Source: Platerodrilus igneus
Lineage: Eukaryota; Arthropoda; Insecta; Coleoptera; Lycidae
Direction of reading: 5' to 3'
Length of the DNA stretch: 64,000 bases
Assembly: GCA_036346225.1 (NCBI GenBank)
Contig: JARFIW010000115.1
Coordinates: forward strand, 2,455,001 to 2,519,000
Positions 18,861-55,200 of the stretch are shown in pieces. The notes below the pieces were generated by a model. That model did no database searches. It worked only from the letters and a program-made list of their open reading frames with translations, and was not told the origin of the DNA. The translations under genes and the position numbers were made by a program. The first letter of the stretch is position 1; every line of letters starts with the position of its first letter.

Positions 18861-18876
18861 CGGTCGAAAGGAACCA
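18861..18876 (-). promoter_or_regulatory. primer-binding-site candidate of the BEL/Pao element
   Basis: On the minus strand, 3 nt inside the 5' LTR, the sequence reads TGGTTCCTTTCGACCG. The leading TGG (pairing with tRNA CCA) and the position fit a PBS. I did not match the rest to a particular tRNA. Confidence 0.55.
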
Positions 18877-18879
18877 AAA

Positions 18880-19269
18880 TGTAGGGATAAAGGATGAACC
18901 AATGATATGGAATTCACCTACCTTTAATCACTGCGATCTTGATTCAACGCTGGTCGATCAATGTAACGAAACTATTAATTGATTGCGGACTGTAGTAATG
19001 TTAATTAGCACACGAACCGATTGTACGGCACTAATTACTGCAAAACAACCACGACAACATATTGCATACATGTGACGCTTGCTACGACTTTCGAAGCACT
19101 GGTATTTCTGTCTTTTCTCACCATTTAGTCCCTTTTCTTGTAAGTAGGTAGTGGATAGAACCGGATTATAGGAAGGGGTTAAGTACTGTTAGGTTAAAGG
19201 ATAAGCGACATTAATTAATATCTATAAGCTTAAGGTAAAACGTGTAAATAGGGTAAATAAGCCTAAACA
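18880..19269 (-). repeat. BEL/Pao LTR, 5' LTR in element orientation
   Basis: 390 bp, TG...CA, about 98% identical to 12724-13114. Differences seen include GG for GGG at the start, C for G in TTTAATCACTG, and GCACTGGTATTT for GCACTGAAATTT. Confidence 0.95.
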
Positions 19270-25205: not shown

Positions 25206-28200
25206 CTGAAACACATTTTTATTTCTACAAATCTGGGGGGTTAAACAGCTTAACTTAATGTGATTAGATAAAAAGTAAGGTGAACCTACCTGCGTCTGCG
25301 TGAGTAGCCTTGTCCAGGCAGACCAAAGTAGCCACGTGGTATAACCATACGTGCATTCCCTTGCGCTGGTCTTGAGCCTCCATGAGTCATTAATAGAGCT
25401 AAATGAGCTGCATATCCTTCTGTTAGAACGGTGGCTTGATTTTGAGATTTCTTACTGACTTTACCGACTATGTAGATTTGTTTGGGTTTAAGGGATATCG
25501 ATGTATAAACGCCTATGTCTTTACTGCTGCCATAGGCTGAGTGGATGATAACGCCATGATTCTAAAATAAAAATATCAATGGAACGAATAGTTCTAACTT
25601 GATCAAAGCAATAACATTTTTTTAATATGATAATCATGTAAATTTATCTAAGATTTGTTACATGCCGAAAATCGGCATTTAAACATTTCTATAAGTTCCT
25701 AATTTGTAAGTGATTTCGCGCCAATAATTTAAAAGACTTGTGCGTGCATTTCCGTCACTTTAGTGAGTTGCGTCGGCGCTCGTGATTGCGCAGACGCTGA
25801 GAGGAACAGAAGTGGTGATTTCCGTCACGTCGGGACTAGTCAGCGAGACGTTGAGCCTAGTGGTTATCTTTGTGCTGTTATCTAGTCTTCTTTTTCCGGT
25901 TATGTAGGTTTCCTTTGTCGTGTCTCTACCTGATATCGTACCTTTACCTGTATTCCTGTCGTCCCTCTACACAAGGAAGAAGAAGACACATTAATTTGGA
26001 CTCAACCGGGGGCAAAAGGATGACCCACGCCCACAATGCTCAACGACGCCCAGCTGCCGCCAAAATAGCCGTACGGCTGTGAGGAGTCCTACAGTTTACG
26101 TGAGTACCTTTGGTTTTCTCTTACAATTAAAATAAACATTTTTGTATGTGATAATAATTTGATCATAAGTATGACGTAACCGCTCATTGCACTACATTTT
26201 GCAAATATCTTTTGTGTTACCAACTGTCGTAGTGGCTCTCATACATTACCCGCCGGGACTTTAAAAAGTATACCTTAGGGTTTAGACCTAAAGTGTAACA
26301 GATTATATTCCCTCAGTTCGTCAAAATACACAAATTATAAAACAAAAACCTACACTGTGGATATCATGAGTTTATGGGTTCTGTGGTGGATGTTTCTTTG
26401 ATCGACGTCTGATGGTGTTCGTCGACGAAGTCAAGATAAGGTAGATATAGGAAAAGATAACAGTGAAGAGATCAATTCACCGACACAAACTTCGTCCATG
26501 CACTGTTATATGCCAAAATTGGCAGTGTACAATTTTAGATTTAGTTATAATTTATAAGGTATTCCCGCGTATTTTTTAAATTAAAAACGCCAAATTCTGT
26601 AGTCCTTGAGTCGCGTCTGCGCAAAGCGATGCGGAGTGCGCGCGTGATGGAAAAAGACACCATTAAGTTACGAGCCCTCGACAAAGCAACATCTACCTGT
26701 GGGGGTGTGCGTTTTCTCTTTAGGTATGTAAGTTCCTTTTACCTGCCGGCTACCTTGTCAAAATCACTCCAAGGAGTCGATCGGATCAAGATCACTTCGC
26801 CTAGTAGATCTTGTCGAAATCACTTCGGGGAGGCAATCGGATCAAGATCACTTCGCTCTAGTATATCTTGTCGAAAACACTTCAGGGAGTCAATCGGATC
26901 AAGATCACTTCGCCCTAGTAAACTTTGACGAAATTACTTAGAGGAGTTGATCGGATCAAGATCACTTCGCCCTAGTACACTTTGTCGTAATCACTTAGAG
27001 GGAGTCTATCGGATCAAGACTACTTCGTCCTAATAGACTTTGTCAAAATCGCTTTGGGGAGTCGATCGGATCAAGATCACTTCGCTCTGGTAAACTTTGT
27101 CGAAATCACTTCGGGAAGTCCATCGTATCAAGACCACTTCGCCTTAGTAGACTGCTGAAATCATTTCGGGAAGTCGATCGGATTAAGATCACTTCGCTCT
27201 AGTAGACTGTCAAAATCACTTCGGGGAGTTGATGGGATCAGGACCACTTCGCCCTAGTAGACTTTGTCGAAATCACTCCGAGGAGTCGATCGGATCAAGA
27301 TCACTTCGCCCTAGTAGACTTTGTCAAAATCACTCCGAGGAGTCAATCGGATCAAGATCAAGATCACTTCGCCCTAGTAGACTTTGTCAAAATCACTTCG
27401 GGGAGTCGATCGGATCAAGATCAAGATCACTTCGCCCTAGTAGACTTTGTCAAAATCACTTTGGGGAGTCGATCGGATCAAGACTGTCAAAATCACTTCG
27501 GGGAGTTGATGGGATCAGGACCACTTCGCCCTAGTAGACTTTGTCGAAATCACTCCGAGGAGTCGATCGGATCAAGATCACTTCGCCCTAGTAGACTTTG
27601 TCAAAATCACTCGAGGAGTCAATCGGATCAAGATCAAGATCACTTCGCCCTAGTAGACTTTGTCAAAATCACTTCGGGGAGTCGATCGGATCAAGATCAA
27701 GATCACTTCGCCCTAGTAGACTTTGTCAAAATCACTTTGGGGAGTCGATCGGATCAAGATCAAGATCACTTCGCCCTAGTAGACTTTGTCGAAATCACTT
27801 CGGGGAGTCGATCGGATCAAGATCACTTCGCCCTAGTACACTTTGTCGAAATCACTTCGAAAAGTTCATCGTATCAAGACCACTTCGCCTTAGTAGACTG
27901 CTGAAATCATTTCGGGAAGTCGATCGGATTAAGATCACTTCGCTCTGGTAGACTGTCGAAATCACTTCGGGGAATTGATCGGATCAGGACCACTTCGCCC
28001 TAGTAGACTTTGTCGAAATCACTCCGGGGAGTCGATCGGGCCAAGATAAGTCGCCCTAATAGACTTCGTCGAAATCATTTCAGGGAGTCGATCTGGGGTC
28101 AAGATCACTTCGTCCTAGTAGACTTTGTCGAATTCACCGCGGGGAGTCGATCGGATCAAGATCACTCCGTCCTAGAAGACTTTGTGAAAATCACTTAGAG

Positions 28201-31200
28201 GGAGTCGATCTGATCAAGATCGCTTCGTCCTAGTAGTCTGTCGAAATCACTTCGGGGAGTCGATCGGGTCAAGATCGCTTTGCCCTAGTAGACTTTGTCG
28301 AAATCACTTCGGGGGGAGTCGATCGGATCAAGATCACTTTGCCCTAATAGACTTTGTCGAAATCACTTCAGGGGGAGTCGATCAGATCAAGATCAAGATA
28401 AAAATAAAGATAAAGATAAAGATAAAGCTTAAGATCAAGATCAAGATCAAGATTAAGTTCGCCCTAGTAGACCTCGTCAAAATCATTTCAAGGAGTCGAT
28501 CGAGGTCAAGATCACTTCGCCCTAGTAGACTTTGTTGAAATCATTTCAAGAAGTCGATCGGGGGTCAAGATCACTTCGCCCTAGTAGACTTTCTCGAAAT
28601 CACCGCGGGGAGTCGATCAGATCAAAATCACTCCGCCCTAGAAGACTTTGTGAAAATCACTTCGAGGGAGTCGATCTGATCAAGATCGCTTCGTCCTAGT
28701 AGTCTGTCGAAATCACTTCGGGGAGTCGATGGGGTCAAGATCGCTTTGCCCTAGTAGACTTTGTCAAAATCACTTCGGGTAGTCGATTGGATCAAGATCA
28801 CTTTGCCCTAGTAGACTTTGTCAAAATCATTTCAAGGAGTCGATCGGGGGTCAAGATCACTTCGCCCTGGTAGACTTTGTTGAAATCACCGCGGGGAGTC
28901 GATCGGATCAAGATCACTGTCTTAGAAGACTGTCAAAATCACTTAGAGGGAGTAGAACTGATCGCTTCGTCCTAGTAGTCGGTCGAAATCACTTCGGGGA
29001 GTCGATCGGGTCAAGATCGGGTCAAGATCGGGGTCAAGATCGGGTCAATATCAGGGTCAAGATCGGGGTCAAGATCGGGGTCAAGATCGGGTTCAAAATC
29101 GGGTTCAAGATCGGGGTCAAGATCGGGTCAAGATCACTTTGCCCTAGTAGACTTTGTTGAAATTACTTCGGGTAGTCGATCGCATCAAGATCAGTTCGCC
29201 CAAGTAGACTTTGTCGAAATCACCTCGAAGGAGTCGATCGGATTAAGACCACTTTGCCCTAGCAAACTTCAAAAAAAGGTTGCCGGCTATGTAAACATTT
29301 CTGGTTTTAGTTTTAAAATATGTGACTAAAACTGCGCCAATATTTCAAAAAATAGACTTGTGCGTGCATTTCCGTCACTTTAGACAGTTGCGTCGGCGCC
29401 AGAGAATGCGCAGACGCGGAGTGCGGAAGAAAGTGGGCATTTTTCCGTCACGTTATGGACTAGTCAACGAAACGTCGAACAGTGACGTTTATCTGTGTCG
29501 TCCTTTTATCTTGTCTTCTCTTTCACATATGTAGGTTTCCTGTCTCGTACCTGTTATCGCTGCCTACCTTATTCCTTTCGTATCGCTACAACAAGAAGAG
29601 GGAAGACAGAAAATCTGACTTCAACGGGGGCGAAGGCCGAACCACGCTAACTAACGCCAAGATCCTACAGCTGCCATGTTGTGAAGAGCTCCGCCTTTTA
29701 CGTGAGTACATTTTATCTATTTCCTTTAGGCGCCTCCGTTATCACGATAATATTTTTGTATGTGATAACAATTTGAGACGCAAGAATGACGTAATACCTT
29801 GTTGCGCAATATTATGAACGTGTTTATTGTTACCAACTGTCGTAGTGGCTCTTATCAATTACGCGCGGGACTTTAACAGTATACCTTAGACTAGAACAGG
29901 GGGAAAGTATAACATATCTTGTATCGAACCTGGTACCTTAATTCCTGTCACTCCCCTATGAGTACAGAAGTTACAGGAAGGACGGATGGTAATTTGATTC
30001 AGCATGACGTAGCTAAACCCAACCTTACAAAGCACCGAGGGACCCTGAGATGAATTTCCGAGATGCCACCACGTAAGTAATTTGGTTTTATTGAAATTGT
30101 GCTTGCAAATTGACTTAAAAACAGGTTGCATCCCCCTAAAAACGTGGTGGGTATGTTACAATATGGCGAATAAATTTGCAGCATAATTATGCGTTAAATT
30201 ATAACAATTGCGCAATAGTATAACAGTTGCCCGCAATAGTATAACCATGACGTGTGGTTATTCAGCAGTATAACAATGGCGCCCAACGCGCTGCGCCATT
30301 GTTATACTCCCGAATAACAACACGTCATAGTATAACAATTGACCGCAATAGTATAACAATGACGTGTAGTTCGTGAGTATAACAGCACGTCCATATTCGA
30401 TCTGGGTCGGTAAGAAAATCCTGTTCCTTTCAACGCTTCGTTCGCGCAAACTATCGTCCCCTCTACGATTTTTCACGTTCACATGCTAATAACCGGTAGA
30501 CGCAGTTGCATTTTCGTAGCTTGAAATGCATCGATTGTGGTTTTCACACCACGACCAAAAGGCGTGAAAAACGTTCTGGGATTTACACGTGAAGCTTAAA
30601 TTAAAAATGATAAAAAGAAACTTTCCTATGCCGGGTTTAAAAATCCCTAAAATTAAATACGAAATTAAAAAAGTGAAGCTTAGCCATGCGACTTGCATTT
30701 GGTAAAGAATTTTTGCATACCAACCTTGGCAATGTGACACGCTTGGTTTGTAATTTCTGCATACCGAACCTTGGCCATGTAATGTGCTCGGTTTGGAATT
30801 TTTGCATACCAAACAGTGTCCATGTGACCAACTCAATTTGGAATTTTTGCAAACCAACCTTGGCCATGTGTTTTGTACTCGAATTGGAATGACATACCGA
30901 ACCATGGCAACGTGACACGCAGTGTTTGTAATTTTTGCATACCAAAGTTTTGTAAAAATAACTTGAGCGTGGATTGAAGTTTTTACATACCAAACCTGGG
31001 CCTGAGATTGCACTCAGTTTGAAATTTTTACATAGCAACGTTGACCATGTGACACACTCGGTTTGAAATATCTACATACCAAACCCTAGCGATGTGACAC
31101 GCGCAGTTTCGAACTTTTGCATACCTTGGCCATGAAGCGCTCGGTTTGGAATTTTTGCATACCAAACAGTGTTCATGTGACTCGCTCGATTTGAAACTTT

Positions 31201-34200: not shown

Positions 34201-37200
34201 CGGTAGCGTCGCTTTTTCATCGCGCTTGCGCGATGTATTTATCGATTTTTTAAACTGTAAGAATTGCGTTTTTAAGCTGTAAGAATTTGGTTTTAAATCG
34301 TAAGAACGCTCGGTTTGGAATATCAGCATACCGAACCCCAGCAATGTGACATATTCGGTTTCGTACTTTTGCATACCAAACCTAGGCCATGAAACGCTCG
34401 ATTTGGAATTTTTGCAAACCGAACCTCGGCAATGTTATGTGCAGGTTTGTCCCGGCTCCATAACTTGAGCGTGGATTGGAATTTTTGTAAAATGAACCTT
34501 GGCTAAGTGTCTTGCGCTCGGTTTGGAATTTTTACATACAGAACCTTGGCCATGTGATTTACACTCGGTGTGGAACAATGACATTATGAACCATGGCAAT
34601 GTGACGTGCACTGTTTGTAATTTCTGCATACCGACGTTTGACTGTATAAATCGAGTGCAGATTGGAATTTTTACATACCAAAGTTGGCCATGTGACACGC
34701 TCGGTTTGGAATATCTGCATACCGAACCTTGGCCATGTGTCTTGTGCTCGGTTTAGAATTTTTGCATACAGAACCTTGGCCATATGATTTGTGCTAAGTT
34801 TGTAATTTTTGTATACCGAATCTTCACAATGTGATGTGCACGGTTTGGAATTTTTGCATACCAAATTTTGGCTACATAACTTGAGCATAGATTGGAATTT
34901 TTACATACCAAACCTTGGACGTGTGGCACGCTCTGTTTGGAATATCTTAATGCCGAACCTTGTGCACGAGACTTGTGCACGGTTTGGAATTTTTGCATAC
35001 CAAAATTTTGGTCATGTAGCTTGTATTCGGTATGGAATTTTTTGTATACCAAACCTTGAACATGTGATTTGCGCTCGGTTTGGAATTTTTCAATACAAAA
35101 TCTTGACCATGTAACGCGACGCGTTGGGTTTGGAATTTTTGCATACTGAACCTTGTGTTATGTGCTTCATTTTTGAATTTTTGCATACCAAACGATGGCC
35201 TCATGACAGCTTGGTTTAGAATTTCTGCATAACAAACCTTAGACATGTGACGTGTGTGGTTTGCAATTTTTTTATACACAACTTTAGACGTGTGACATGC
35301 TCGGTTTGGAATTTATGCATCCCAAAGCTTGGACTGTGACATACTCAGTTTGGAGTTTCTGCAAACCAAACCTTAGCCATATGATATACTCGGTTTAGAA
35401 TTTTTGCATACCAGACCTTGGTCATGTGATGCACTCGGTTTGGAATTTCTGAACAACGAACCTTGGCTGTAACTTGCATTAGATTTGGAATTTCTAAATA
35501 CCAAACCAATGTGACGAGCTTGGTTTAAAATTTTTGCATACTGAACTATGGCCATGCAACGCACTCGGTTTGGAATTTTTGCAAACCGAACCTCGATTGT
35601 GGTTTGCGTTCAGTTTGGAAATGTTGCATACCAAACCTTGGCTATGTGACACTTGGAATTTCTGCATACCACACGTTGGCCATGTGACAGGCTTGGTTTA
35701 GAATTTTTACATATCAGACCTTGGTAGTGTGATGTGCTCGGTTGGGAATTTCTGCACAATAAACCTCAGATGCAAATTGCGTTCGGTGTGGAATTTCTGC
35801 ATACCAAACCTTGGCTATGTGACGCATTCCGTTGGGAATGTCTGCATACCGAATGTTGGCCATGTGACAGGCTTAGTTTAGAATTTTTGCATACCAGACC
35901 TTGGTCATGTGATGCGCTTGGTTTGTAAATTCTGCACAAAGAACCTTGGCTGTGAGTTGCATTAGATTTGGATTTTCTAAATACCAAATCTGTTACGAGC
36001 TTGGTTTGAAATTTTTGCATACTGAACTTTGGCCATGCGATGCACTCGATCTGGAATTTTTGCATACAGAACCTCGGCTGTGACTTGCGTTCGGTTTGAA
36101 ATTTCTGCATACCAAACGTAGGCCATGTGACAGCTTGGTTTAGAATTTTTGAATACCAGACCTTGGTCAGGTGATGCGCTCGTTTTGGAATTTCTACATA
36201 ACAAACCTTGGCTGTGACTTCCATTAGGATTGGAATTTCTAAATACCAAAACCTATGTGACGAGCTTGGTTTGGAATTTTTGCATACTGAACTTTAGCCA
36301 TGCAAAGCACTCGGTTTGGAATTTCTTCATACCAAATGTTGGCCATGTGACAGCTTGGTTTACAATTTTTGCATACCAGGCCTTGGTCATGTGATGCGCT
36401 CGATTTGAAATTTCTAAATACATAATTTAATGGACGAATAAATGAATGATTGAATGAATAAATAAATAAATGAATGATGGAATGGATGAATGGATAATTG
36501 AATGAATGAATACTTGAACACGAATAAGTAATTAATATATACATTAATGAATGAATGAATGTAAGGATGAGTGAATGAATGAATGAATAAATATATAAAT
36601 AAATGAATGAATTAAAGAACGAATGCATGAATTAATGGATGAATGAATAATTACAGAATAAATGGATACATAAATAATAAATAAATAAATGAATGATCGA
36701 ATGAATTAATACATAAATATTTAAATGAATAAATAAATGCATAAATGAATGAATGAATGATAACATCAATGAGCGAATAAATACATAAAAAACGAAGGAA
36801 TGAACAAATCGATGAGAAATGCATTAATGATCGAATGTATGAATTAAGGAATGCAAACATAATTAAACACATAGATGAATGAATTAATTAAAGATTGAAT
36901 GAATGAATACATAAATAGAATGAAAAATAAATACATGAACGAATGAATAAATGGCTGAAAGGAGGAATACCTAAATAAATATATGAATAATTACATACAT
37001 AAACAAATGAACGAATAAATGATTGAATGAATCAATGAATGATTTAATGAGTGAATGAAGGAATGAATCAATGGCTGAATGAATGAGTAAATAAATAATA
37101 AGTGAAAGAATAAAGAAATACATACATAAATAAATGAATGAATAGATGAATAAATGATTACATAAATAAGTAAATGGTAGAATGAATAAGTGAATACATA

Positions 37201-40200
37201 AATAAATGAATAACTCGATGAATGATTGAATAATTGAGTGATAAAATGAATGGCTGAATGAGTGAACGATTGAAAGAATGAATAAGTAAATAAATGAATG
37301 AATAAATGCATAAGTATATAAATTGAAAACGTAAATAAATAAGTAATTGACTGAATAAATAATTATTTATTTATTTACACAAATAAATGAGTGCATGAAT
37401 CAATGAATAAATGGAATGAGTGAATAACTATGTTCGGTCTCTTTGTCGCATGTTTGCGTGGTTAATTTTAAGTTACTTTAAATTCGTAGTTGTAAATCTA
37501 ATTGTAAAACTGTCATCCCTTGTTCCCTTATATCCTGCCGTAAAAATTCCTTGTGCATGTGTGAATAAGTTGGACTAAGAGTAGTGAACAAACACTCTCT
37601 TATGGATATCGAAGCAGAACAGTCGGTTTTTCGTTCGGTAACGTAAGTTAGTCATAGTGCAGCGGAATGTGAATTTATTTGTTAAACCCCTAAAAAACAC
37701 AGTGCAAGTGCAACGTAACACGGACTAAATCTCGCATACAGTCCACTTAGTTGAAGGAATAGGAACTGCAGCTTAGAACAACAAAACAACGCGGAGGTAA
37801 GTCGATATACAAATTTATAAAACCTCTGCGCAATAAACAAACTAAATGAATGAATAAATAAATGGATACATAAATAAAAATAAATCTATGAATATGTAAA
37901 TAAATACTTAAATAAATGAATGAATACATAAATAAATAACAAATGAGCGAATACATAAATAAATAAATACTTAGACGAATGAATGGGTGAATGAATGAAA
38001 ATGCCATTAAATAAATCAATGAATGAATCAACCAATGAATGAATGGGTGGGTGAATGAATGATTGAATAAAGAAATACATAAACAAATGAATGAATATTA
38101 AAATAAATACATAAATGAATGAATGAGTGAATCAAAATAAATACATAAATAGATAAATGAATGAATAATAAATAAATGCATAAATGATTGACTGGATGAA
38201 TGGTTGAATGAATTAGTGGACCACTGAATGCATCAATGAATGGAGTGACTGAGTGAATAAATACATAAATAGATAAACAAATGATTAAATAAATAAATAA
38301 ATAATTTAATGAATGAATAAATGAACGATTGAATGAATGAATAAATAAATAAATAGATATGCACAAATAAATCGACAATGGATTAATGATTGAATGACTG
38401 AGTAAATAAATAAAAACACAAATACAAATGAAGATTGAATAAATCAATGTATGAATGAATGAATGGATTGGAATAATGAATGAGTCATTAAAATGGATGA
38501 ATATATAAATAAATGGATGAATAAATATATGAAAACGAATACATAAATAAATGAATGATGGAATCAAAGAATAAATTGGTGAATGATAGAATGAATAAAT
38601 ATATAAATAAATGAACGAATAAGTGAATGAATGAATGGATGAATGAATGATTAAATGAATGAATGATTATATGGATAAATACACAAATAGAAAATGATTG
38701 AATAAATAAATATTTACATAAATAAATGAATGAAAATGATGAACGAATGAATGGAAGAATGATGAACGATTAATTGCAGAATAACTATGTACATAAATAA
38801 ATGATTGTATGTATGAATGAATGACTGAATGAATGAATACATAAATAAATAATTGAATGAATAAATAAATGAATGAATGAATCAGTGAATGGATGGATGA
38901 ATACATAAATAACTAAATAAATGAACGAATTCATAATTAAATACGTAATCTTGACAATATGATACACTCGGTTTGAAATTTTTGCATACCGAACCTAGGT
39001 TGTGACGTGCGTTCGGTTTGGAATTTCTGCATACCAAACCTTGGCTCTGACACATTCGGTTTGGAATTTCTGGATACCAAACCTTGGTCATGTGACCGGC
39101 TCAATTTAGAATTTTTGCATACCAGACGTGGGCCATGTGACGTGTCGGTTTGCAATTTCTGCACAACAAATCTTGTTCGGTTTGGAATTTCTGCATACCA
39201 AACCTTGGCTATGTGACACATTCTGCTTGGAATGTCTGCATACCAAATGTTGACCATGTGACAGGCTTGGTTTTGAATTTTTGCATACCAGACCTTGGTC
39301 ATGTGATGCGCTCGGTTTGGAATTTTTGCATAACAAACCTTGGCTGTGACTTGCAATAGATTTCGAATTTCTACATACCAAACCTGTGTGACGAGCTTGG
39401 TTTGAAATTTTTGAACTATGGTCATGCAACGCACTCAGTTTGAAATTTTTGCATACCGACCCTCGGCTGTAACTTGCGTTCGGTTTGAAATTTCTGCATA
39501 CCGAACCTTGGCTATGTGATGCACTCAGTTTAGAATTTTTGCATATCAATCTTGACAATGTGGCGTGCTCAGTTTGGACTTTTTGCATACCGAATGTTGG
39601 ATTTGTGCGAGCTCAATTTGGAATTTTTGCATACCTAATCTTGACAATAAGATACACTCGGTTTGAAATTTCTGGAGACCGAACCTTGGCCATAAGATGC
39701 ACTCGGTTTGGAATTTTTGCATACCGAACCTCGGCTGTGACTTGAATTCAGTTTGGAATTTGTGCATACCTAACCCTGGCCATGCGACGCACTCGGTTTG
39801 GAATTTTTACATATCGAACCTCGGCTGTGACTTGCGTTCGGTTTAGAATTTTTGCATACCGAACCCTGGTCATGTGATGTACTTGGTTTGGAATTTTCGC
39901 ATATCATTCTTGACAGTGTGGCGTGCTCGTTTTGAAGTTTTTGCATACCGAATGTTGGCTTTGTGCAAGCTCAGTTTGGAATTTTTGTATACTGAACTTT
40001 GGCTATGTGATGCACTCGGTTTGGATTTTTCGCATATCAATCTTGACAATGTGGCGTGCTCGGTTTGGACTTTTTGCATACGGAATGTTGACTTTATGCG
40101 AGTTTTTGCATACCTAATTTTTGAGATATGATGCACTCCGTTTGAAAATTTTGGAGACCAAACCTTGGCCATGTGACGTGCTCGGTTTGGAATTTTTGAT

Positions 40201-43200
40201 AATTGATCATTACAAACATCTTAAAAATAATTACAAAAGCGTGTTTGTCGTAATCTTGTTACATGCCGAAAATCGGCTATGTAAACATTTTTGATTTTAG
40301 TTTAAATATGTGACTGAAATCGCGCCAATATTTTAAAAATAAACTTGTGCGTGCATTTCCGTCACTTCAGACAGTTGCGTCGGCGCCAGAGAATGCGCAG
40401 AGTGGAGTGTGGAAGGAAGTGCGGTTTTTTTTGACACAACGGGACTAGTCAACGAGACGTCTAACAGTGAGGTTGATCTGTGTCGTCTTTTTATCTTGTC
40501 TTCTCTTTCAGCTAATGTAGGTTTCCTGTATCGTACCTTTTATCACTCCCTACCTTATTCCTATCGTATCGCCACAACAAAAGAATATGGAAGTCAAATA
40601 AATCTGGGTTCAACAAGAGCGAAGGCCGACCCACGCCCAACTAACGCCGAGATCCTGCCGCCATGTCGTGAAGAGCTCCACATTTTACGTGAGTACATTT
40701 TATCTTTTTCTTTTGTATGTGATACAAATTGGAGACGCAATAATGACGTAATACCTTGTTGCGCAGTATTATGCACGTGTTTATTATGTTGCCAACTTAT
40801 ATCTTTTCTATTTAAAAGTTATTGAACAATTAAATAATTATTTTTTATTATTATTTGAGTGAATAAGACATAATTATGACAGATATATTCAAAACTAATA
40901 CCTTATAAGATACACAAGAGGTGAAAACAAATTTGTCAACAAATAACGTTCAGGCGCCACTGTTATCGTTTACGCCTGTTATAGTTCAAGGTATAACCGT
41001 TAAAGTCCCGCGCGTAATTGATAAGAGCCACTACGACAGTTGGCAACATAATAAACACGTGCATAATATTGCGCAACAAGGTATTACGTCATTATTGCGT
41101 CTCAAATTTGTATCACATACAAAAGAAAAAGATAAAATGTACTCACGTAAAATGTGGAGCTCTTCACGACATGGCGGCTATTCTGGCGGCAGGATCTCGG
41201 CGTTAGTTGGGCGTGGGTCGGCCTTCGCCCTCGTTGAACCCAGATTTATTTGACTTCCCTTTTCTTTTGTTGTAGCGATACGATAGGAATAAGGTAGAGA
41301 GTGATAAAAGGTACGATACAGGAAACCTACATTATCTGAAAGAGAAGACAAGATAAAAAGACGACACAGATCAACCTCACTGTTCGACGTCTCGTCGACT
41401 AGTCCCGTTGTGTCGGAAAAAACCGCACTTCCTTCCACACTCCACGTCTGCGCATTCTCTGGCGCCGACGCAACTGTCGGAAGTGACGGAAATGCACGCA
41501 CAAGTCTATTTTTAAAATATTGGCGCGATTTCAGTCATATTTAAACTAAAATCAAAAATGTTTACATAGCCGATTTTCGGCATGTAACAATCTATAAAAA
41601 TCGACCCACATTACCTGAACAAGGTCATTCAAATATGCAGCCTTGTGTCCCAACGGGTCAGTCGACAAACCATCGGCAAACGAAACCAAACCATGTGGAA
41701 AATTATGCTGCGAGAGCCATGAAACAACTTTTTGTTGCTGCATATCCGGTCGTCCCGTTATGTATATAATTAAAAAACCTAATTCTTGCCAGTGCCTAAA
41801 ATGCCAAATTACTAAAACAATAAAGCTTAAGATTCCACCTACCTTACGATATCCACAGCGCCTGCACGTACTTTGGGATCTCGCCCGGTCACCGACATGC
41901 TTGCGGTAAACGATCCGTCGATACTAAATACAACACACTCAGTCTTAGGCGGTACGACAGCTAGAAAGAAGTCGACCGATGTATGATCACCTCGTACAAC
42001 CATCTTAAAATATTTTTAGTAAGTGAGTGTTAGTACGAAGGGTCTTACCTTAATGGGGTACAATCCGTAGCTCAACGATTTATCGTCTGGAATTGTGTAG
42101 GTTATACGACCTGTTTTGTCTGTTACTTCCGTGGCGATTAACGACCATTCGCCTGCAGGTGTATCGCGCATTATATGAATGTCGACCTTCTCCCCGGCTA
42201 ACGTTATCATATCCAAAGGTCCATACATAAACCTTGCGATTAGAGTTTCAGGAGCGCCTTCACGAACGATAACGTCATTCGCACGATGATTCGCTGCAAC
42301 GTTCTAAAACATTTTAATAAAAGCAAAGACGGTACAGCGGGTTGTAAGACCTTTAGCTTCACTGATGTTCGCTTCCTGATCCACTTCTCGCGCGGCTGAC
42401 CTGGTTTAAAGCACAGCTCACGGTCGTCGCTTCCTGTAATTGGTACAAGTTCTTGTCGGGCGACTTGTCGTAGTATAAACGCAATAACATCGTAGCTCTC
42501 CCAATAGCTAGCGTGGAATAGATGTGGAAGTGCATTCGTAGGAAAGTTCGAAAGACCTTCCGGACAGTACAGGGCGTAATCCAAGCGTTTTCCACCCCAC
42601 CATTTTTGTTGCACTAAAGAAAAAAGATGTAAGAACGCTGTCGATTGTTAAACGTTTGCATTAGTAGGAGAAGCGGAAGTTGCAGTTGCAGCAGTAGCGT
42701 AAGCATAGTACTTACAAGCATTCACAGTCTGAAGTGGAATGCTATCGATAATTCCGGAAATAGTGCTCTGAATTGATACGTCTGACAAACGTCTGGGCTG
42801 AACGCCCAAACTGTCATTAAACATCTGAGGGTTACTCTGAAGAATCTCGACTAGAAGAGTTTAAAAGGTTAGGGAAGAAGAGGTTAGTAAGCTAGATGTA
42901 GGGGTTGTGTACTTACACAAGTGGTACGGCTGTCCATCGCCCAGTGGATACTTAGCGTATCGAGCTACGTTCATAGGTGGTACCATTGAAAAACGTGCTG
43001 ATAGTAGAGGTTCTAGACGGGCTGCGACTGGGTCCGTTGGGTGAAACAAATTGTAGACTTGGTGGCAGTTCGGTCGTTTAATTGTATCTGGAAAAATACA
43101 TGAGATGTTTACGTACCAACAATTGTTACATGCCGAAAATCGGCATTTAAACATTTCTGTAAGTTTTTAATTTGCAAGTGAATTCGCGCCAATATTTTAA

Positions 43201-46200
43201 AAGACTTGTGCGTGCATTTCCGTCCCTTTAGATAGTTGCGTCGGCGCCCGGGATTGCGCAGACGCGGAGTGTGCAAGAAGTGGTGATTTCCGTCACGTCA
43301 GGACTAGTCAACTTACTTCCACACTCCGCGTCTGCGCACTCTCGGGCGCCGACGCAACTATCTGAAGTGACGGATATGCACACACAAGTCTTTTAAAATA
43401 TTGGCGCGAATTCACTTACAAATTAGAAACTTACAGAAATGTTTAAATGCCGATTTTCGGCATGTAACACAACTTACTACTTTTATCGTCGCTGGAAGAA
43501 ACCTTGCGGTACGCAAGCACGAGCGCTAAAGGACTCCCGAACATAAAAAAATCAGAGACTTCGAAGTCCAACTTCGGGTTCACTGTGGGCTCGCTTGTCG
43601 ATGACGAACGACGACGTGGAGCAGGCGCTACCAAATATCCTGTTTCGTTTACTTGCACATCGTCTACAAAACACAACATCTGTCGACCCGTGCAACTTAT
43701 GCAATACATACCTTTATTAATATTAAAATCAGTATCGAGGATGCTATTTTCACTTCCATGCCGTTGATGGTAGCGCGATATTTTACACAAGGCATCGTAA
43801 GCTAGTATCGATCCAACGGAATCAGCAACGATACAAACTTGTCCGGCAAATCCAGAACCCTCTTCGCTCTTTAAAAACTCTACAAAAACAGTTTAAAATG
43901 AGTCGTGTAGTGAAACGAACAAACCTTGATACACGATGTTTGCACTACTAATGGTACGTGTGACGCAGTCTTGGTAATCAGGCGTTGAACATGCTAGAAG
44001 TGGAATGGCACCAATTGGAATTGAATCGTGTGTAACGTGAGGAGCGACGGTGCTTGACGGTGATACGTCGAAACTATACGGGCTTAAGCTGCAATATTTT
44101 AAATTAGTAAAGTCATTTAACAATTACTTCTTAAAACTACGCTTCAAGCTTAGCACTTCGGTTGCACCTTCGCTTACACGAACCTTCTCAATCATTGGAT
44201 AACCGGTTTCCATTTCGTACATTAATTAAATTTATGAAATTTAGCATAAAAGTAGCGATTCATTTCGTTTCCTGAATCAGGCTCTTGTTACTTTATAAAT
44301 TATTATTTGTTGTAAGAATAGAACGGTTTTAATATGCAAAAAATGTTTTTTTATCGCTCTAGGTGTTACATGCCGAAAATCGGCATTTAAACATTTCTAA
44401 TTTTAGTTCTGAATTTGTAAGTGAATTCGCGCCAATAATTTAAAAGACTTGTGCGTGCATTTCCGTCACTTTAGATAGTTGCGTTGGCGCTCGAGATTGC
44501 GCAGACACAGAGTGGAAAGAAAGTGGTGATTTCCGTCACGTCGAGACTGGTCAACTTAACGTCGAACCGAGTGGTTATGTGTGCCGTTATCTTGTCTTCT
44601 CTTTCAGATATGTAGGTATCCTGTCTCGTACCTGATTATCGTACCTCTACCTGTATTCCTTTACCGTACCGCTTGTTACGTGTCGAAAATCGGCCGTAAA
44701 CATTTTCAATTTTACTTTTAATTTGTAAATGATTTCGCGCCATTAATTAAAAAAGACGTGCGTGTATTTCCGTCACTTCAAATAGTGGCATTTGCGCAAA
44801 GGATTGCGCCGACGCGGAGTGTGGAAGAATGTGGGTGATTTCCGACACGTCGGGACTAGTCAGCCAGACGTCGAGGCTAGTGGTTTATCTTTGTGCCGTG
44901 TCTTGTCTTCTTTTTCAGGTAATGTAGGTTTCCTTTGTCTTTTGTACCTGTTATCGCTCCTACCTGTATTCCTGTCGTATCGCTACAAAGAAGAAGAAGA
45001 CAAATTTAAATTTGGATTCAACCGGAGGCAGACGGATTACCCACGCCCTCAATGCTCCCCGATGCCAGCTGCCGCCATAATAGCGTAATCCTGTAAGGAG
45101 TCCTACACCTTTATAGTTTTTTTGCATGTGATGTAGTAATTTAAAACATTTATATGACGTAATACCTTATTTGCGCGTCATTTTGCAAATATCTTTTGTG
45201 TTGCCAACTGACGTAGTGGCTCTCGTACCTTACCGCCGGGAGTATAATAGTGGCGCCCAACGTGGGGCTCGATTCTATTTATTATATTAGTGATATCGTC
45301 GAGGGATTGTCTATTTCAAAGGTATTTTGAGCTAGATCTGAGACAAGGACTCGCGCAATAGGTGAACCTTTAGCTTCTAGAGCTAGTATAGCTTCAAGTT
45401 GCAAACGTCTCTCATTTTGGTTGGATACTGCTTGGATATTCCTAGATTGAATTTCGTAAATTAATTCCGATGACTTGAAATGAACGATGTTCATTGTAAG
45501 ATAGTGTTTAAGGGAACAGGTATAACAAAATTACGTTACTATAACGTTTTTAGAAGGTAAAAGATATGCTAAAAAAATCAGTTAGTTGCGTTAGCTGTAT
45601 TTGAAAGCTAAGTTTTCTTTAAAAAGAATTTGTAGGTTATAGTTAATTGTTTAAATTACTAAGAAAACACTTTTAAGATGATATCAGAGTAAGATAATCT
45701 ATACATTATTTAAGAAACACTTTTAAAAGTTAAACAAAAAAACAGGTATATAATTAATTTACGAAATTCAATCTAGAAATATTCAAGCAGCATCCAACCA
45801 AAATGACAGACGTTTGCAACTTAAAGCTATACTAGCTCAAGAAGCTAAAGGTTCACCTATTGCGCGAGTCCTCGTCTCAGATCTAGCTCAAAAAACCTTT
45901 GAAATTAAACAATCCCTTGACGATATCACTAATATAGTAAATAGAATCGAGCCCCACGTTGGGCGCCACTATTATACTCCCGGCAGTAAGGTACGAGAGC
46001 CACTACGTCAGTTGGCAACACAAAAGATATTATTTGCAAAATGACGCGCAAATAAGGTATTACGTCATATAAATGTTTTAAATTACTACATCACATGCAA
46101 AAAAAAACGATAAAACTACTCATGTAACTGTAGGACTCCTTACAGCATTACGCTATTATGGCGGCAGCTGGCCTCGGGGAGCATTGAGGACGTGGGTCTG

Positions 46201-49200
46201 CCCCCGGTTGAATCCAAATTAAAATTTGTCTTCTTCTTCGTAGCGATACGACAGGAATACAGGTAGGAGCGATAACAGGTACAAAAGACAAAGGAAACCT
46301 ACATTAGCGTAAAAAGAAGACAAGACACGGCACAAAGATAAACCACTAGCCTCTATTATCTCCCCGTGAACTCGATATACGCGACACAATGGCAGTTGGT
46401 AGCGCCAATCTTTATACAGATTTTGGCGCGCCCATCTGTCAATGACGTCACACACTAAGCACATTTAATTGCGCAATTACGGAATAAATATAAATGTTCG
46501 AAATGCAGTATAAACAAATAAGGTACTTACGTAAATAGGTCCAGCTTCCCACGAAGTACGCCAAGGATGGCGTCCTTCAGGATGGCTGGAGCCCCCTTTT
46601 TAGATAATTGACGGAGGGTACGCCCAGCGTCCCTCCAAAGCGCTCCGACTAGCTACGGCAGTCATGGACTCGTTCGTCTAGGTTCGTGGACTCCGGTTCG
46701 CCCTGGGCTGCTTACAAATTACCTGTACCTATGCAGGGAACGAATAAGGAAACAGGTATAAGGGGCGACAATCAGATAAGGCAAGGAAATCTACATAAAT
46801 AAAAATAAAGGCACGATACGATACCTAACACGACCACTCTTCTGGAAGTCCCAGGCAAAATAGCCACGTTACAGAGTCCCCCGGAAACTTCCCCACTCTT
46901 GTTCTCACGGCACTCGCGTCGCGCGATCTGGCGCAGACGCACTCTGACGTGTTGGAAATACACGCCAAGTCTTCTGAATTTATGGCGCGAACTCACGCAC
47001 AGCAAAATTAAGCTAAGGAGTGTTTAGTGCCAATTTGGCACGTAACACCTCGACGTCTGGCTGACTAGTCCCGACGTGTCGGAAATCGCCCACTTTCTTC
47101 CACACTCCGCGTTGGCGCCACTATTTGAAGGGACGGAAATACGCGCACGTCTTTTTAAATTAATGGCGCGAAATCACTTACAAATTAAAACTAAAATTGA
47201 AAATGTTTACGGCCGATTTTCGGCACGTAACACGCTACAGAAGAGAGAAGACAAATTAATCTGGTTACGACGAGGGGGCAAAAAGACGACCCACGCCCAC
47301 GACGCTCCACCAACGCGGAGAGCCTGACGCGAGAATAGCTGTGAAGAGTTCCACAGTTTACGTGAATACCTTTTATCTTCTACTATAATCCAAATAAACA
47401 TTTTTTGCATGTGATATAGTAATTTGAAACATTTATATGACGTAACACCTTATTGCGCAACATTATGTATGTATTTATTATTGTTACCAACTGTCGTAGT
47501 AGCTCTTATACAGTACGCGCTGAGACTTTAAAAGTATACCTTAGAGTAGAGAACCATCAAGTATAACCGTGGCGCCCAACGTGGGCTCGACTGTTATACT
47601 TCAGTTCTCTACTCTAAGGTATACTTTTAAAATCCCGGCGCGTAATGTATAAGAGCCACTACGACAGTTGGTAACAATAATAAATACATGCATAAGGTTG
47701 CGCAATAAGGTGTTACGTCATATAAATGTTACAAATTACTATATCACATGCAAAAAATGTTTATTTTGATTATAGTAGAAGACAAAAGGTACACACGTAA
47801 ACTGTGAAACTCTTCACAACATTGCCGCTATTCTCGCGTCAGGCTCTCCGCGTTGGAACGTTGTGGGCTGTTACATGGCAAAAATTCGGCATATAAACAT
47901 TTCTATAAGTTTTAATTTGTAAGTATTTCGCGCCAATAATTTAAAAAGACTTGTGCGCGTATTTCCGTCACTTCAGACAGTGCGTTCGCGCGAGATTGCG
48001 CCGACGCGGAGTGCGAAGAATGGTGGTGGTGAATTTCCGGACACGTCGGGACTAGTGAGCCAGACGTGGACGAATCTAGTTATCTTTGTGTCTTATCGTG
48101 TCATCTTTTTCTTGATATGTAGGTTCCCTGCCTTATATCTGATTATCGTTCATCCTTACCTGTATCCCTGTGTTCCGCTACGGAAAAGAAGACAAATTTG
48201 AATTTGGATTCAACCGGGGGCCCAACGAATCACCCACGCCCAAACTGCTCAGCGAAGCCCAGCTGCCGCCATAATGGAGTAATGCTGTGAGAAGTCCTAC
48301 AGTTTACGTAAGTACTTTTCAGGTTTTTTGTGATGTAGTAATTTTAAATAATTATGAACGTAATATCTTATTTGCGTATCATTTTTGCAATTATTTATCA
48401 TTCCTACCAACTTACTGTAGTGGCTCGCGTACCTCACCAACGGGGGTATAATAGGGCGTGGGTCGTCCCTTTGCCCCCTCGTCGGAACCAGATTAAAATT
48501 TGTGTTCTCTCTTCTGTGTAGAGGTACGGTAAAGCAATACAGGTAGTGGTACGATATCAGGTAGAGATGAAAGGAAACCTACATATCTGAAAAAAGAAAA
48601 AGGCACACAGACAACCGCTCGGTTCGACGTTTAGTTGACTAGTCCTGACGTGACGGAAATCACCACCCTTTTTTCACTCTGCGTCTGCGCAATCTCGAGC
48701 GCCAGCGCCACTATCTAAAGTGACAAAAATGCACGCACAAGTCTTTTAAATTATTGGCGCGAATTCACTTACAAATTCAAAACTAAAATTAGAAATGTTC
48801 ACATGCCGATTTTCGGCATGTAATATAGGATGTGAGAGCGTTCTTCAAGTGACTGCATACCGTCAGGAATTTTTATCGCTCTTGGGGAATGTAACGTGAA
48901 CACGCGTTGTTAAAGTGATGACCGTCGTTCTGATTGGTTGTAAGACGGCCGATTTGAATAAGTTAATCCAGGAAGTGACGAACAGGGGCAACGGCATACC
49001 GGAGTTCACTGGACAAGACTTCGAAGTAGTGCTAGAAGTTCTCGCTACCTTTCCTTTACGGCATTACAGCTGTTATTGGCAAGCAACGCCATTAATTTTG
49101 CCAACACCCGAACTAGCAAAACCCTGAGAGTTGGTTTCGCTGCAGGTAGCCACTGATTTTACACAATTAAATTTTGTTAATTAACTAAGAGTCGGGAACC

Positions 49201-52200
49201 GTTTCGATATTGTAGTTAAATTCTGTTCTTACTTTGTTTTCGCACGCCTTTAGAAACAAAACAACAGAAACTACACGTTTTACTTCGTTCCGCTTGTAAG
49301 GGTTCGACCGAGTCAGCAGTTCCTTTTTCGTTTTTAAGATTTCATCGAATTTGAACGGGTATGGGATTTAACCCGAGGGCTTCGTTAGTAGCTTCAAATC
49401 CTGTAGTTGATTTATGATCGTTATGTTTGCTTGTAACATGCCGAAAATTCGGCCTGTAAATATTTCTATAAGTTCCTAATTTGTAAGTGATTTCGCGCCA
49501 ATAATTTGAAAGACTTGTGCGTGTATTTCCGTCCCTTGAGATAGTTGCGTTTGCGCAAAGGATTGCGCAGACGCGGAGTGTGCAGGAAGTGGTGATTTCC
49601 GTCACGTCATGAACTAGTCAACGAAACGTCGAACCGTGTGGTAATCTGTGTGCATTTGTCTTCATATTTCAGGTAATGTAGGTTCCTTGTCGTATCTCTG
49701 CCCTGTATCGTTCGTCACCTTATTCCTTTACCGCACCTCTACATAAAAAGAGAGAAGACAGAAAATCTGGTTTCGACGAGGGAGCAAAGGACGACCCACG
49801 CCCAACAACGCTCAACCCACGCCAAGAGCGTGACGCGAGAATCACTGCCATGTTGTGAAGAGTTCCACAGTTTACGTGAGTACATTTATCGCATGTGATA
49901 ATATTGAATCATAAATGACGCAACCGCTATTGCGCATATGCACGTATTTAGTTACCAACTGTCAGTGGCTCTTATAATTACGCGCCGGGACTTTAAAATA
50001 TACCTTAAAGTATAGAACCCTAAAGTATAACAGTGGCGCCTCACGTTGGGCGCCACTGTTATACTTTAAGATTCTCTACTCTAAGGTATACTGTTAAAGT
50101 CCCGGCGCGTGATGTATAAGAGCCACTACGACAGTTGGTAACAATAAATACGTGCGTAATATTGCGCATAAGCGGTTACGTCATATTTATGATTCAAATT
50201 ATTATCACATGCAAAAAAAGATAAATGTACTCACGTAAACTGTGGAACTTTTCACAACATGGCAGCTATTCTCGTGTCAGGCTTTTGGCGTGTGTTGAGC
50301 GTTGTTGGGCGTGAGTCGTCCTTTGCTCCCTCGTCGAAACCAGATTTTCTGTCTACTCTCTTCTTATGTAGAGGTACGGTAAAGGAATAAGGTGAGGAAC
50401 GATACAGGGCAGAGATACGACAAGGAACCTACATTACCTGAAAAAAGAAGACAAAGGCACACAGATAACCACACGGTTCGACGTTTCGTTGACTAGTACC
50501 GACGTGACGGAAATCACCACTTCTTGCACACTCCGCGTCTACGCAATCCCGGGCGCCGACGCAACTATCTAAAGGGATGGAAATGCACGCACAAGTCTTT
50601 TAGAATATTGGCGCGAATTCACTTGCAAATTAGAAACTAAAATTAGAAATGTTTACATGCCGATTTTCGGCATGTAACAAAATCCTGTAGTCAATGTTTA
50701 GTTAGCTATGGGATGAGTTGGGTTCACTGTGCCTACCGGATCGCTAAGAGTTGCTACCCGGTTCAACTTATACAAAGCTTGCATTCCACAAACAAAAGCA
50801 AACAATAAAAAATCAACATTGCAACATTTAAAAAGCATTACCTGGACAAAATTCCCAGCCCTTCCGTACATATAGACGGACAAGACACCAATTTAACAGC
50901 GACATGTCCTACTAGCGTAGGGTAATGTTGCCGCATGACAGATTCAAAAGCTCCTCGAAACGTAGTAATATCAGATTTCTTAGCGGTAATATCAACATTT
51001 GCATCTGTCGAACATATTTTCGTAAATATTCCGATGAGTTTTAGGAAATAAAAACCTACCGAGAACACTTCCAGCATGTAATACTAAAACTAAAACAGTC
51101 GTGCTGCAAGGTAAATGTGCCGGTGAAGCACACGGAGAATCAGGACATGATGTATCCAACGAGCTTCCTTTGCCACGTTGGAACATTTTACGATTGCTGC
51201 GTTCACTTGCAACTCGTTGTAGAAATGATGGTGAAAATATACTATCATCTGCAAATATTTATGAAATGTTTGGTTATGTACGTACAGAAGCTAGCTACCT
51301 CCTAGTTTATCGATAAATACGTTAGGCGAAATGGCATCGTGGTCCTCTTCCGTCAACAATTCTAGCGAACTCCACTTTGCAAGCGATGACGATGCGCTCA
51401 TATCTAAATTGTTAAGAATAGAAAAGGCGACAGTAATCGATCAACTTACCCATGCAATCAAAAAACTCCTCATCCGATGCTGATTCAGAGTCCCTACCTA
51501 AACTTTCAATCCTCCAATTTGCTACTTGTAAATCGAAGCTTTTAATCGACGACGAACCAGGTGAATGTGCACCACGCTGTTTCCAGCTGTCATCAGTCCT
51601 AAAAACAAATCGGTAATACAATTGTGTAACCGTAACCCGATAATATAAGTAAAGGTTTTGTTCATACAGGCAAGCATCCTTGGGGAGCAGCCATCGGTGG
51701 GCAACCGTAGAATTCCTTAGTTTATTGTTAAAGGCATTATCTAGCAAGGGAAAGCTTTTGTATTATGCTAGAGCCTGTATAAAAATAATTGTTTATTTAT
51801 TTATTTATTGATGCGTTCATTAATTCATTCATCATCCATCCATCCATTCATTCATTTATTTACGTATTTATTATGTATTCACTCATTTATTTAGTTATTT
51901 ATGTATTCATTCATTAATGCATTTACAGATTCATTCATTCTTTATTTATGCATTTATTTATTCATTCAATTATTTATTTATGTAATCATTCATTCATACA
52001 TACAATCATTTATTTATGTACCTATTTATTCAGTCAATCAATCGTTCTTCATTCTTCCATTCATCCTTTTACCATTTTCATTCATTTATTTATGTATATA
52101 TTTATTTATTTATTCAATCATTTTTTATTTGTGTATTTATCCATACAATCATTCATTCGTCCATTCATTCATTCACTTATTCGTTCATTTATTTATATAT

Positions 52201-55200
52201 TTATTCATTCTATCATTCACCACTTCATTCTTTGATTCCATCATTCATTTATTTATGTATTCGTTTTCATATATTTATTCATCCATTTTAATGACTCATT
52301 CATTAATCCATCCTTTCAATCATCCATACATTGATTTATTGAATCTTCTTTCATATTTGTGTTTTTATTTATTTATTTAGTCATTCAATCATTTATTCAT
52401 TCCTTCATTCATCGTTGATTTATTTATGTGCCTATTTATTTATTTATTTATTCATTCGTTTAATCGTTCATTTGTTCATTCTTTAATCATTAATTGATTT
52501 ATTTATTTATGTAATCGTTTGTTTATTTATTTATGTATTCATTCACTCAATCACTCATTCATTAATGCATTCAGTGGTCCACTAATTCATTCATTCATTT
52601 ATGTATGTACTTATTCATTCATTTATTTATTTAATTATTCATTCAATCATTCATCCAATCAATCATTTATTTATTATTCCTTCATTTATTTATTCATGTA
52701 TTCATTTATTCTTTCATTTTAATTTACTCATTCATTCATTCATGTATTTATTTTAATATTCATTCATTTATTTATTTATGTATTCCTTCATTCAATCGTT
52801 TTCACCCATCCACTCATACATTTACTGATTCATTTATTTATTTAATTACGATTCTATTCATTCATTCATTCATTTAAGTATTTATTTACGTATTCGCTCA
52901 TTTGTTATTTATTTATGATTTCATTAATCATTTATTCAAGTATTTATTTACGTATTCACAAATTTATTTTTTATTTATGTATTAATTTATTCATTCATTC
53001 ATTTAGTTATTCACTCATTCCATTCATTCATTTATTTATTTGTGTAAATAAACAAATAATTATTTATTCAGTCAATTATTTATTTATTTGTTTTCAATCA
53101 TTCATTCCTTCAATCATTTATTTATATACTTAGGCATTTATTCATTTATTTATTTATTTATTCATTTGTTCAATCGTTCATTCATTCATTTTATCACTCA
53201 TTGATTCAATCAATCATTGAATTATTCATTTATTTATGTATTTGCTTATTCATTCTACCATTTATTTATTTATATAATCATTCATTCTTTCATTTATTTA
53301 TTTACTCATATATTCATCCACTGATTCATTATTTCATTCATTCATTAATCATTCATTGATTCACTCAATCATTCATTCGTTTATGTATGTAATTATTCAT
53401 TCATTTATTCATATATTTATTTAGGTATTCTTTCTTTTCGCCATTTATTCATTCATTCATGTATGTATTTTTCATTCTATTTATGTATCCATTCATTCAA
53501 TCTTTGATTAATTCATTCATCTACGTGTTTATTTATTTTGCATTCTTTTATTCATACATTCGATCATTAATGCATTCCTCATTGATTTGTTCAATCCTTC
53601 GTTTTTTTATGTATTTAATCGCTCATTGATGTTTTCATTCATTCATTCATTTATGCATTATTTAATTATTTATTTATTCATTTAAGTATTTATGTATTAA
53701 TTCATTCGATCATTCATTTATTTATTATTTATATATCCATTTATTCCGTAATTATTCATTTATTCATTAACTCATGCGTTCGTTCTTTAATTCATTCATT
53801 TATTTATATATTTATTTATTCATTCATTCAATCATTCACTCATCCTTACATTCATTCATCCATTAATGTATATATTAATTACTTATTTGTGTTCAAGTAT
53901 TCATTCATTCAATTATCCATTCATCCATTCGTTTGTTCCATCATACATTCATTTATCTATTCATTTATTCATACATTTATTCATTCAATCATTCATCTAT
54001 TCATCCATTAATTTATGTATTTATTTATTCATACGTTTATTTATGTATTCATGCATTCAATTATTCATTTATTCGTTCGTTCATAGATTCATTCATTTAT
54101 TTATTCATCTGTTTATTAATTTAGTTACATATTCAATCATATGTTAAGTATTTATTTACGGATTCACTCATTTGTTTTTATTTATGTATTCATTCATTCG
54201 ATTATTAAATCATTCATTCAGTGATTCCTCATTCAGCTATATATTTATTTGTTTTCAATCATTCAATCATTTATACATTTATTTATTCATTTGATTCTAT
54301 CATTCATTAATTAATTTATGCATTTATTTATTTATTCATTGATTTATTTATTTATGTATCAGTTAATTTGATCATTCATTTATTCACTCATTGAATCATT
54401 TATTATTGGCATTTTTATTCACTTATTTATGTATTCATTCATCCATCCATTCATTCATTTATTTATGTATACATTAGTTATTTATTCATTTATTTATGTA
54501 TTCATTCGCTCAGTCATTCTTTGCATTCATTGATTCACTTGTTCGTTCATTTATTCATGTATGTATCTAATCATTCATTTATTTAAGTATTAATTTCAAC
54601 CATTCATTTATTATTCATTCATTTATCTATTTGTATTCCTTGATTCATTCACTCATGTATTTATTTATATTATTCATCCAATCAATCATTCATCCATCTA
54701 TTCATTCATTTATTTATTTACGTTTTCATTTATTCAATTATTCATTCATTCAGCCATTCATTCATTTATTTAAGTATTATTAATGTATTCACTCCTTTAT
54801 TTTTTATTGTTTTATTTATGTATTCATTAATTCAATCGTTCACTCATTCATCCACTCATTCATTTACTTATGCATTTATTTATCTATTCATTCATTTATA
54901 CATTTATTTATTTATTTATGTAGTCATCCATTCAATTTATTCATTAACCCATTCACTTAACCGGCCATTCATTTATACATTTATTTACATTCATTCACTT
55001 ATTTATTTATGTAATCATTCATTGAATGATTCATTCATTCTTCCATGCATTCATTCATTCATTCATTTATTTCTTTATTCATTCATCCATTAATAAATTC
55101 TTTCATCCATTAATTCATTAAAACATTCATTTATTCATATATGTACTTATTTATTTTTTCATTCATTCAATCCCTCATTCATTCAATTCATTAAATTATA

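Follow-up and report, generated by a model that had tools for sequence, protein, structure and literature searches.

The 64,000-nt window analysed here, positions 2,455,001 to 2,519,000 of contig JARFIW010000115.1 of the lycid beetle Platerodrilus igneus, holds five units in which two long terminal repeats (LTRs) of a retrotransposon family stand head to head, with the U3 termini (TGTTAC or near) on the outside. Ordinary members of an LTR retrotransposon family have direct LTRs, so that U3 is at one outer end and U5 at the other; these units, with U3 at both, are a derivative of such a family. The arrangement described in the earlier note holds for all five units, but its placing of the primer binding site (PBS) or a PBS remnant at every centre does not: in unit A the PBS occurs in the right arm only, and unit B has none, its GGCGCC belonging to U3. 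The units and other copies of the family in the window are listed below; primes mark inverted orientation, TSD stands for target-site duplication, and C and L numbers denote loci elsewhere in the genome.

40257..41589: unit A; LTR (+) 40257-40797, without the U5 end; leader 40798-40952; PBS' and LTR (-) to 41589; TSD ATCT/ATCT
43124..43469: unit B; both arms consist of U3 alone (43124-43312, 43320-43469); CAAT/CAAC; no PBS
44364..48825: unit C; LTR (+) 44364-44673 and 47237-47569; centre 47570-47590; LTR (-) 47591-47868 and 48458-48825; TSD TAGG/TAGG
47570..47590, + strand: centre of C; PBS and TCGA, then LTR'; joint as in L039 minus one base
44674..47232: unit D, nested in C; LTR, PBS, antisense gag/leader, turn, gag, PBS', LTR'; TSD CGCT/CGCT
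45251..45272, + strand: left PBS of D; 22 nt, a copy of the tRNA-Lys(CUU) 3' end
45947-45968, - strand: right PBS of D; identical to the left 22-nt PBS
45285..45530, - strand: N-terminal gag fragment of D, open frame, antisense to its adjoining LTR; identified by blastn against the L046 internal region
45754-46041, + strand: frame of the inverted second copy of the gag fragment, continuing into PBS' and U5'
46354..47047, - strand: solo LTR in the right arm of D; TSD CCTC
47869..48453, + strand: solo LTR in the right arm of C; TSD GGGC
49432..50679: unit F; LTR (+) 49432-50033, centre, LTR (-) 50056-50679; TGCT/AAAT, no 4-bp TSD
50034..50055, - strand: centre of F; the 18-nt PBS followed by GCCA (PBS18+GCCA), with one change; found at three other genome places
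30277..30298, + strand: sixth PBS-PBS' centre, in a truncated unit whose LTRs belong to another subfamily; three changes from PBS18+GCCA
25656..26300, + strand: intact solo LTR belonging to the family; flanked by GATT at both ends

Unit D sits in the left arm of unit C, whose right arm reads through the same point uninterrupted, which marks a clean insertion. Arm-to-arm identity is 97.0% in A, 94.7% in B, 90.0% in C, 95.6% in D and 90.3% in F; that the arms of the older unit C are more diverged than those of the nested D is expected if the two arms start out identical and then drift. In F, divergence is strongest in the U3 head. Against the L046 internal region, the centre of D aligns by blastn as antisense 1028-564, a turn, and sense 835-1028; its gag fragment gave no Pfam match, and no homologue scored among 12 candidates. 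The leader of unit A (40798-40952) is antisense on the + strand and is an ordinary one (80% alignment to the leader of L046), so that it was from the leader that A turned back. The window also holds several truncated LTRs. A second, diverged LTR subfamily (33550-34222 and 46354-47047) has the same U3 terminus and a different U5 end. The flanks of F at 49396-49431 and 50680-50707 are near-duplicates, with the 12-mer AAATCCTGTAGT lying 36 bp to the left and directly to the right in place of a 4-bp TSD.

Target-site duplications and the origin of the arms

Exact 4-bp TSDs around the whole unit were found in 17 of the 27 head-to-head pairs that were checked at both ends, comprising the five window units and 22 further pairs from the 2.71-Gb genome assembly (chance 0.5% each; 0.0048 for a 4/4 target match and 0.056 for at least 3/4). 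The tally omits pairs untestable at one end (C1253, L049, L052, L053, L057 and L059), and the second copy of C830 is uncounted. These duplications bear out the proposal of the earlier note that the inverted dimer itself was the integration substrate; of the window duplications listed there, those of A, C and D are exact, B matches at only 3/4 bases, and F, for which none had been listed, has none. Shifting both boundaries of B by one base yields a 4/4 match. Among the further pairs, TSDs include AGTT in L043, TATA in L056 and, with the left terminus taken as TC, ACAA in L055; insertions found through their centre pattern (described below) have exact TSDs in C830, C843, C1264, C1406, C1473 and C1652 and none in C599 and C1516, C1253 being without a right arm.

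The terminus TGTTACATGCCG occurs exactly at 3779 genome places, compared with 84 for the reversed control. Read by eye, the first 100 places listed contained six plus-to-minus pairs within 2.1 kb and two minus-to-plus pairs within 3 kb. All six of the former were checked: L033 and L036 have an exact TSD and L023 matches at 3/4 bases, L037 has none, L034 combines unrelated arms with no TSD, and L035 is two insertions, its first LTR being flanked by its own AAAG/AAAG. The refuting outcomes named in the earlier note, inverted units without a whole-unit duplication and arms with duplications of their own, therefore do occur in part of this blind sample.

Phylogenetic analysis of the arms points to several origins, and the suggestion that the units are one proliferating non-autonomous form did not survive it, since trees with a single founder dimer were rejected. 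In approximately unbiased (AU) tests, grouping the left arms as one clade was rejected with p = 1e-94 for four window units and p = 1e-15 for twelve units; a clade of all window dimers was rejected with p = 5e-5, and a clade of units with an F-type centre with p = 4e-60. In a tree of 66 rows, the two arms came out as sisters, at starred support, in 11 of 23 two-armed pairs (A, D, F, C1473, L033, L040, L041, L045, L054, L055 and L056). Sister arms were rejected for L034 (p = 9e-6) and for C1264 (p = 0.011); its whole-unit TSD and its PBS centre make C1264 a candidate heterodimer.

The element family and the joints at the primer binding site

The LTRs have TG..CA ends directly followed by a tRNA-derived PBS (ACA-G-TGGCGCCCAACGTGGGGC), and ARAGORN calls tRNA-Lys(CTT) in the typed tRNA. 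At one locus, L038, the sequence beyond the PBS is that of L046, a damaged copy that gave Pfam matches to RVT_1, RT_RNaseH, Integrase_H2C2 and rve as well as two protease matches below the Pfam cut-off; no Pfam match was obtained for the gag frame. L046 carries the same LTR-PBS as the units, and the gag fragment of D aligns to it, so that L046 is likely the autonomous relative. The earlier note had advised looking for a full-length relative with pol; the one found is damaged and has a gypsy-type pol. By the order of its reverse transcriptase, RNase H and integrase domains, and not by a tree, the family is classed as Ty3/gypsy-type. No transposase-bearing relative turned up, no search having been aimed at transposases, and exact patterns gave 0 matches in the viral_contigs and genome_contigs collections.

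The centre pattern AACAGTGGCGCCN{0,30}GGCGCCACTGTT, which allowed 14-44 nt, was found at 11 genome places, all of 20-22 nt; with window unit F removed and the C830 pair (segmental copies with shared flanks) counted once, these represent nine insertions. The forms are TGGCGCCCAACGTGGGGCGCCA at two places, a GTGAGG form at four, GTAGGG at one, 21 nt at two and 20 nt at two. The first of these is the full PBS18+GCCA, which occurs exactly in C599, C1516, L043 and L049, and the remaining forms are shortened or altered versions of it; it would arise if the 3' GGGC paired with GCCC, either in the PBS to which it belongs or in a second one, and were then extended. The best PBS dimer computed with ViennaRNA (-15.0 kcal/mol) has this pairing, which covers 14 nt and includes the 3' ends of both strands. 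The earlier note had suggested, as an example, strong-stop DNA joined through GGCGCC. The PBS end of LTR DNA does lie at many joints, but the GGCGCC joint itself (AACAGTGGCGCCACTGTT) occurs at 0 places in the genome, compared with the 11 centres of 20-22 nt. A symmetrical ACGT joint was likewise seen in 0 of 11 centres.

An exact 24-mer search yielded 20 exact PBS sites, 13 of which turn antisense at the PBS and three more within 0.4 kb, shares that are biased because such a search favours fresh tRNA copies. Eight run directly into PBS'/LTR' (L039, L042, which is C599, L043, L045, L049, L053, L055 and C1516), and L054 reaches a PBS'/LTR' centre after a repeated U5 piece. In five, antisense sequence follows the PBS directly: gag in L041, L056 and L057, pol in L059 and the host gene SDA1 in L040. 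Antisense pol appears further on in L044, from 0.19 kb, and in L050, where a tRNA copy comes first and pol starts at 0.31 kb. An ordinary leader follows the PBS in L038, L051 and L052, the last with an inverted LTR further on, and L058 falls outside these classes. L041 continues as antisense 1083-564 of L046, and L056 as antisense 1074-24 and then a PBS' remnant and LTR'. The joint is common to L041, L056 and L057 and lies at a tRNA-like gag site (0.5-0.9% of positions); because these three are not a clade (p = 1.8e-5), the gag site seems to have been used repeatedly by different LTR lineages.

Three other accounts of these joints were considered. A single pseudo-acceptor shared by every joint does not account for D and L059. 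Splicing as the origin of the truncated arm of L041 was rejected, as the LTR reads beyond the donor-like site. Mispriming by the tRNA at gag would have the wrong orientation, the gag site resembling the tRNA and not its complement.

In L050, the LTR is followed by G and a whole tRNA-Lys(CTT) copy including CCA (ARAGORN), with antisense pol about 0.25 kb beyond. Since nuclear tRNA genes do not encode CCA, no other single locus points as strongly as L050, with its complete copy and the antisense pol behind it, to priming by strong-stop DNA.

L040 contains the host sequence, SDA1 (PF08158, E = 9e-64), in an inverted repeat (at least 859 nt, 94%); among 150 candidates scored, L064 was the only other full-length close SDA1 match. 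At the joint, the host gene reads GCCGCACGTT and the tRNA end GCCCCACGTT, which agree at 9 of 10 bases, the sole match of at least 8/10 to the tRNA end in the 3,497 positions of that strand of the locus. The gene at L064 reads GATGGCCGCACGTTCACTC where L040 reads GATGGCCCCACGTTGGGCGCCA. L040 and L064 match at 96.7% over 419 nt, starting no more than 2 nt from an apparent exon start, ..TTTGCTTTGCAG/GAATGG, placed by eye; upstream of this boundary L040 has pol sequence where the host has an intron. A match that starts near an exon boundary, with the intron absent, speaks for RNA as the probable template. At L040:800-1090 the antisense SDA1 sequence runs on into pol sequence present at many genome places, a second template jump before the turn.

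Surroundings of the units

A host gene surrounds several of the units: C, D and F are situated between its DDHD and IP_trans portions, as defined by Pfam, and B, judged by eye, lies within one of its introns, a very short one. The other features of the window are as follows.

43446-56613, - strand: rdgB/PITPNM-like host gene; IP_trans and DDHD in Pfam; named matches are animal rdgB/PITPNM-type proteins
12724-19269, - strand: damaged BEL/Pao element; DUF1759, Peptidase_A17 and DUF5641; 391-bp terminal repeats 98% alike

The BEL/Pao terminal repeats are, by eye, unrelated to the LTRs of the dimer units. Large minisatellite and short-unit arrays (57-bp, 45-bp, TTCA and ATTCAAG) occupy 26755-29269, 30707-40085, 51792-56043 and 58540-63991.

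Probable misdirected strand transfer and its alternatives

We consider misdirected second-strand transfer, in a Ty3/gypsy-type LTR retrotransposon that uses tRNA-Lys(CUU) as its primer, the probable source of the units, which would be aberrant cDNAs of this element. The 3' end of plus-strand strong-stop DNA (U3-R-U5-PBS) copies that of tRNA-Lys, and its normal partner is the PBS complement at the end of the minus-strand DNA. Instead, this end would land on a plus-sense template, whether its own or the partner strand's PBS, gag, pol or a host mRNA; at the best-resolved joints the templates resemble the PBS complement. Extension would then produce antisense DNA that returns by way of U5' and R' and finishes in a second U3 end; alternatively, the strand may snap back on itself. 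Priming could involve either one molecule or two. The resulting linear product with U3 at both ends would be inserted, presumably by the family's own integrase, with the usual 4-bp stagger.

Several observations weigh against this scheme. Seven of the 27 pairs (F, C599, C1516, L034, L035, L037 and L054) have no whole-unit duplication, and B, L023 and L040 (flanks GGTT/GTTT) match at 3/4 bases; L034 and L035 look like two separate insertions each. Unit B lacks a PBS. The PBS pairing is not rare, as 141 of 3000 shuffles were equally stable with both 3' ends paired, and the share of 13 in 20 sites carries the search bias noted above. Self-priming would not be expected to give the joints of C and L039 (a 22-nt PBS, then LTR') or that of L055 (PBS18 followed by ACTG), which call for ligation or some other event; C and L039 have the same centre save one base absent in C, and their grouping was rejected (p = 0.010). 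The centres of 20 and 21 nt require a shorter end or a later deletion. At the joints of D and L059 the likeness to the tRNA is not above chance, and in L044 and L050 a stretch of 0.2-0.3 kb separates the PBS from recognisable antisense pol. A joint of another kind occurs at L036:743, in a unit with the exact TSD TGTT: the PBS appears to be joined to the GGCGCC that the opposite arm has inside its U3.

Concerted integration of two molecules, in which the U3 ends of two cDNAs were inserted at one site and their free PBS or internal ends later end-joined, would account equally well for the whole-unit TSDs. It would also suit C1264, with its TSD and arms of different lineages, C830, with arms about 80% alike, and the joints of C/L039 and L055, which look like assembled ends. 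We nevertheless regard it as unlikely, because all 11 centres measure 20-22 nt though 14-44 nt were allowed, and because it leaves unexplained both the antisense gag and SDA1 starts at PBS-complementary sites and the tRNA copy that precedes antisense pol in L050. The long inverted repeats and fixed TSD length are what a foldback DNA transposon, or a unit multiplying by dimer copying, would display; the F-type centre occurs at four places, and the right arm of C1652 groups with that of L043 (98/82), which fits dimer copying in this pair. Such an origin is very improbable for the units in general, given the intact solo LTRs (one U3 and one U5 end) with 4-bp TSDs, the tRNA-Lys PBS, the pol-bearing relative, the rejection of founder trees and the finding that neither F-centre nor gag-joint units form clades. 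L035 and probably L034 represent independent insertions in opposite orientation, and F, without a TSD and with arms most different in U3, might be read in the same way or as a rearrangement. As a general explanation, independent insertion, post-insertion rearrangement of ordinary elements or assembly error is extremely improbable in view of the exact whole-unit TSDs in 17 pairs and the clean interruption of C by D; the arms are diverged by about 3-22% and hence do not derive from foldback reads.

Misdirected strand transfer thus remains the reading we prefer, and the units it would yield differ from known elements. They share with Ty3/gypsy elements the TGTTA..TAACA LTR, a PBS one base past the LTR, the 4-bp TSD and, in L046, protease, reverse transcriptase, RNase H and integrase matches, but have two outer U3 ends, an antisense continuation at the PBS and no coding capacity. 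Solo LTRs and terminal-repeat retrotransposons in miniature (TRIM) are likewise small and non-coding with the same LTRs, which here are inverted instead of single or direct. DIRS elements have a tyrosine recombinase and no TSD. Inverted terminal repeats are common to DIRS-1 and similar retroelements and to these units, which differ in having 4-bp TSDs and a PBS, while L046 carries an rve integrase. Long inverted repeats with an asymmetric loop also characterize Foldback (FB) and Mutator/Foldback elements such as Tm1 (PMC3169594); the units differ in having a PBS, solo LTRs, a retroelement interior and 4-bp TSDs. Template switching by which LTR elements capture host mRNA (the term occurs in PMC5408686) similarly joins host mRNA to LTR cDNA, whereas here the capture is antisense, starts at the 3' end of the PBS and lies within an inverted dimer. 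Retroviral DNAs that are inverted or palindromic but unintegrated include a circle with an inverted segment (Shoemaker et al. 1980, cited in PMC12789967); these and the present units are aberrant inverted cDNAs, the former being unintegrated circles and the latter integrated linear U3-U3 units. Among titles and abstract openings, with subscription journals outside the scope, no report of integrated head-to-head LTR units was found; the phrase 'LTRs in opposite orientations' occurs in PMC2151762.

We lean, if only slightly, towards the wider view that misdirected transfer is a standing and productive side path of this family, that U3-U3 dimers are a major class of its insertions, that the path captures host mRNAs in antisense where these resemble the tRNA end, and that this amounts to a new class of LTR-derived elements and a new route of gene capture. 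The side path would persist because the tRNA-Lys copy in strong-stop DNA is self-complementary and able to pair with plus-sense RNA. If this is correct, integrase accepts linear DNA bearing two U3 ends in vivo, second strand transfer, when it fails, is recorded heritably and readably in the strong-stop end and its landing place, and host mRNAs can be captured through complementarity to the copy of the primer tRNA. The units, as C, D and F illustrate, also place long palindromes in the neighbourhood of genes.

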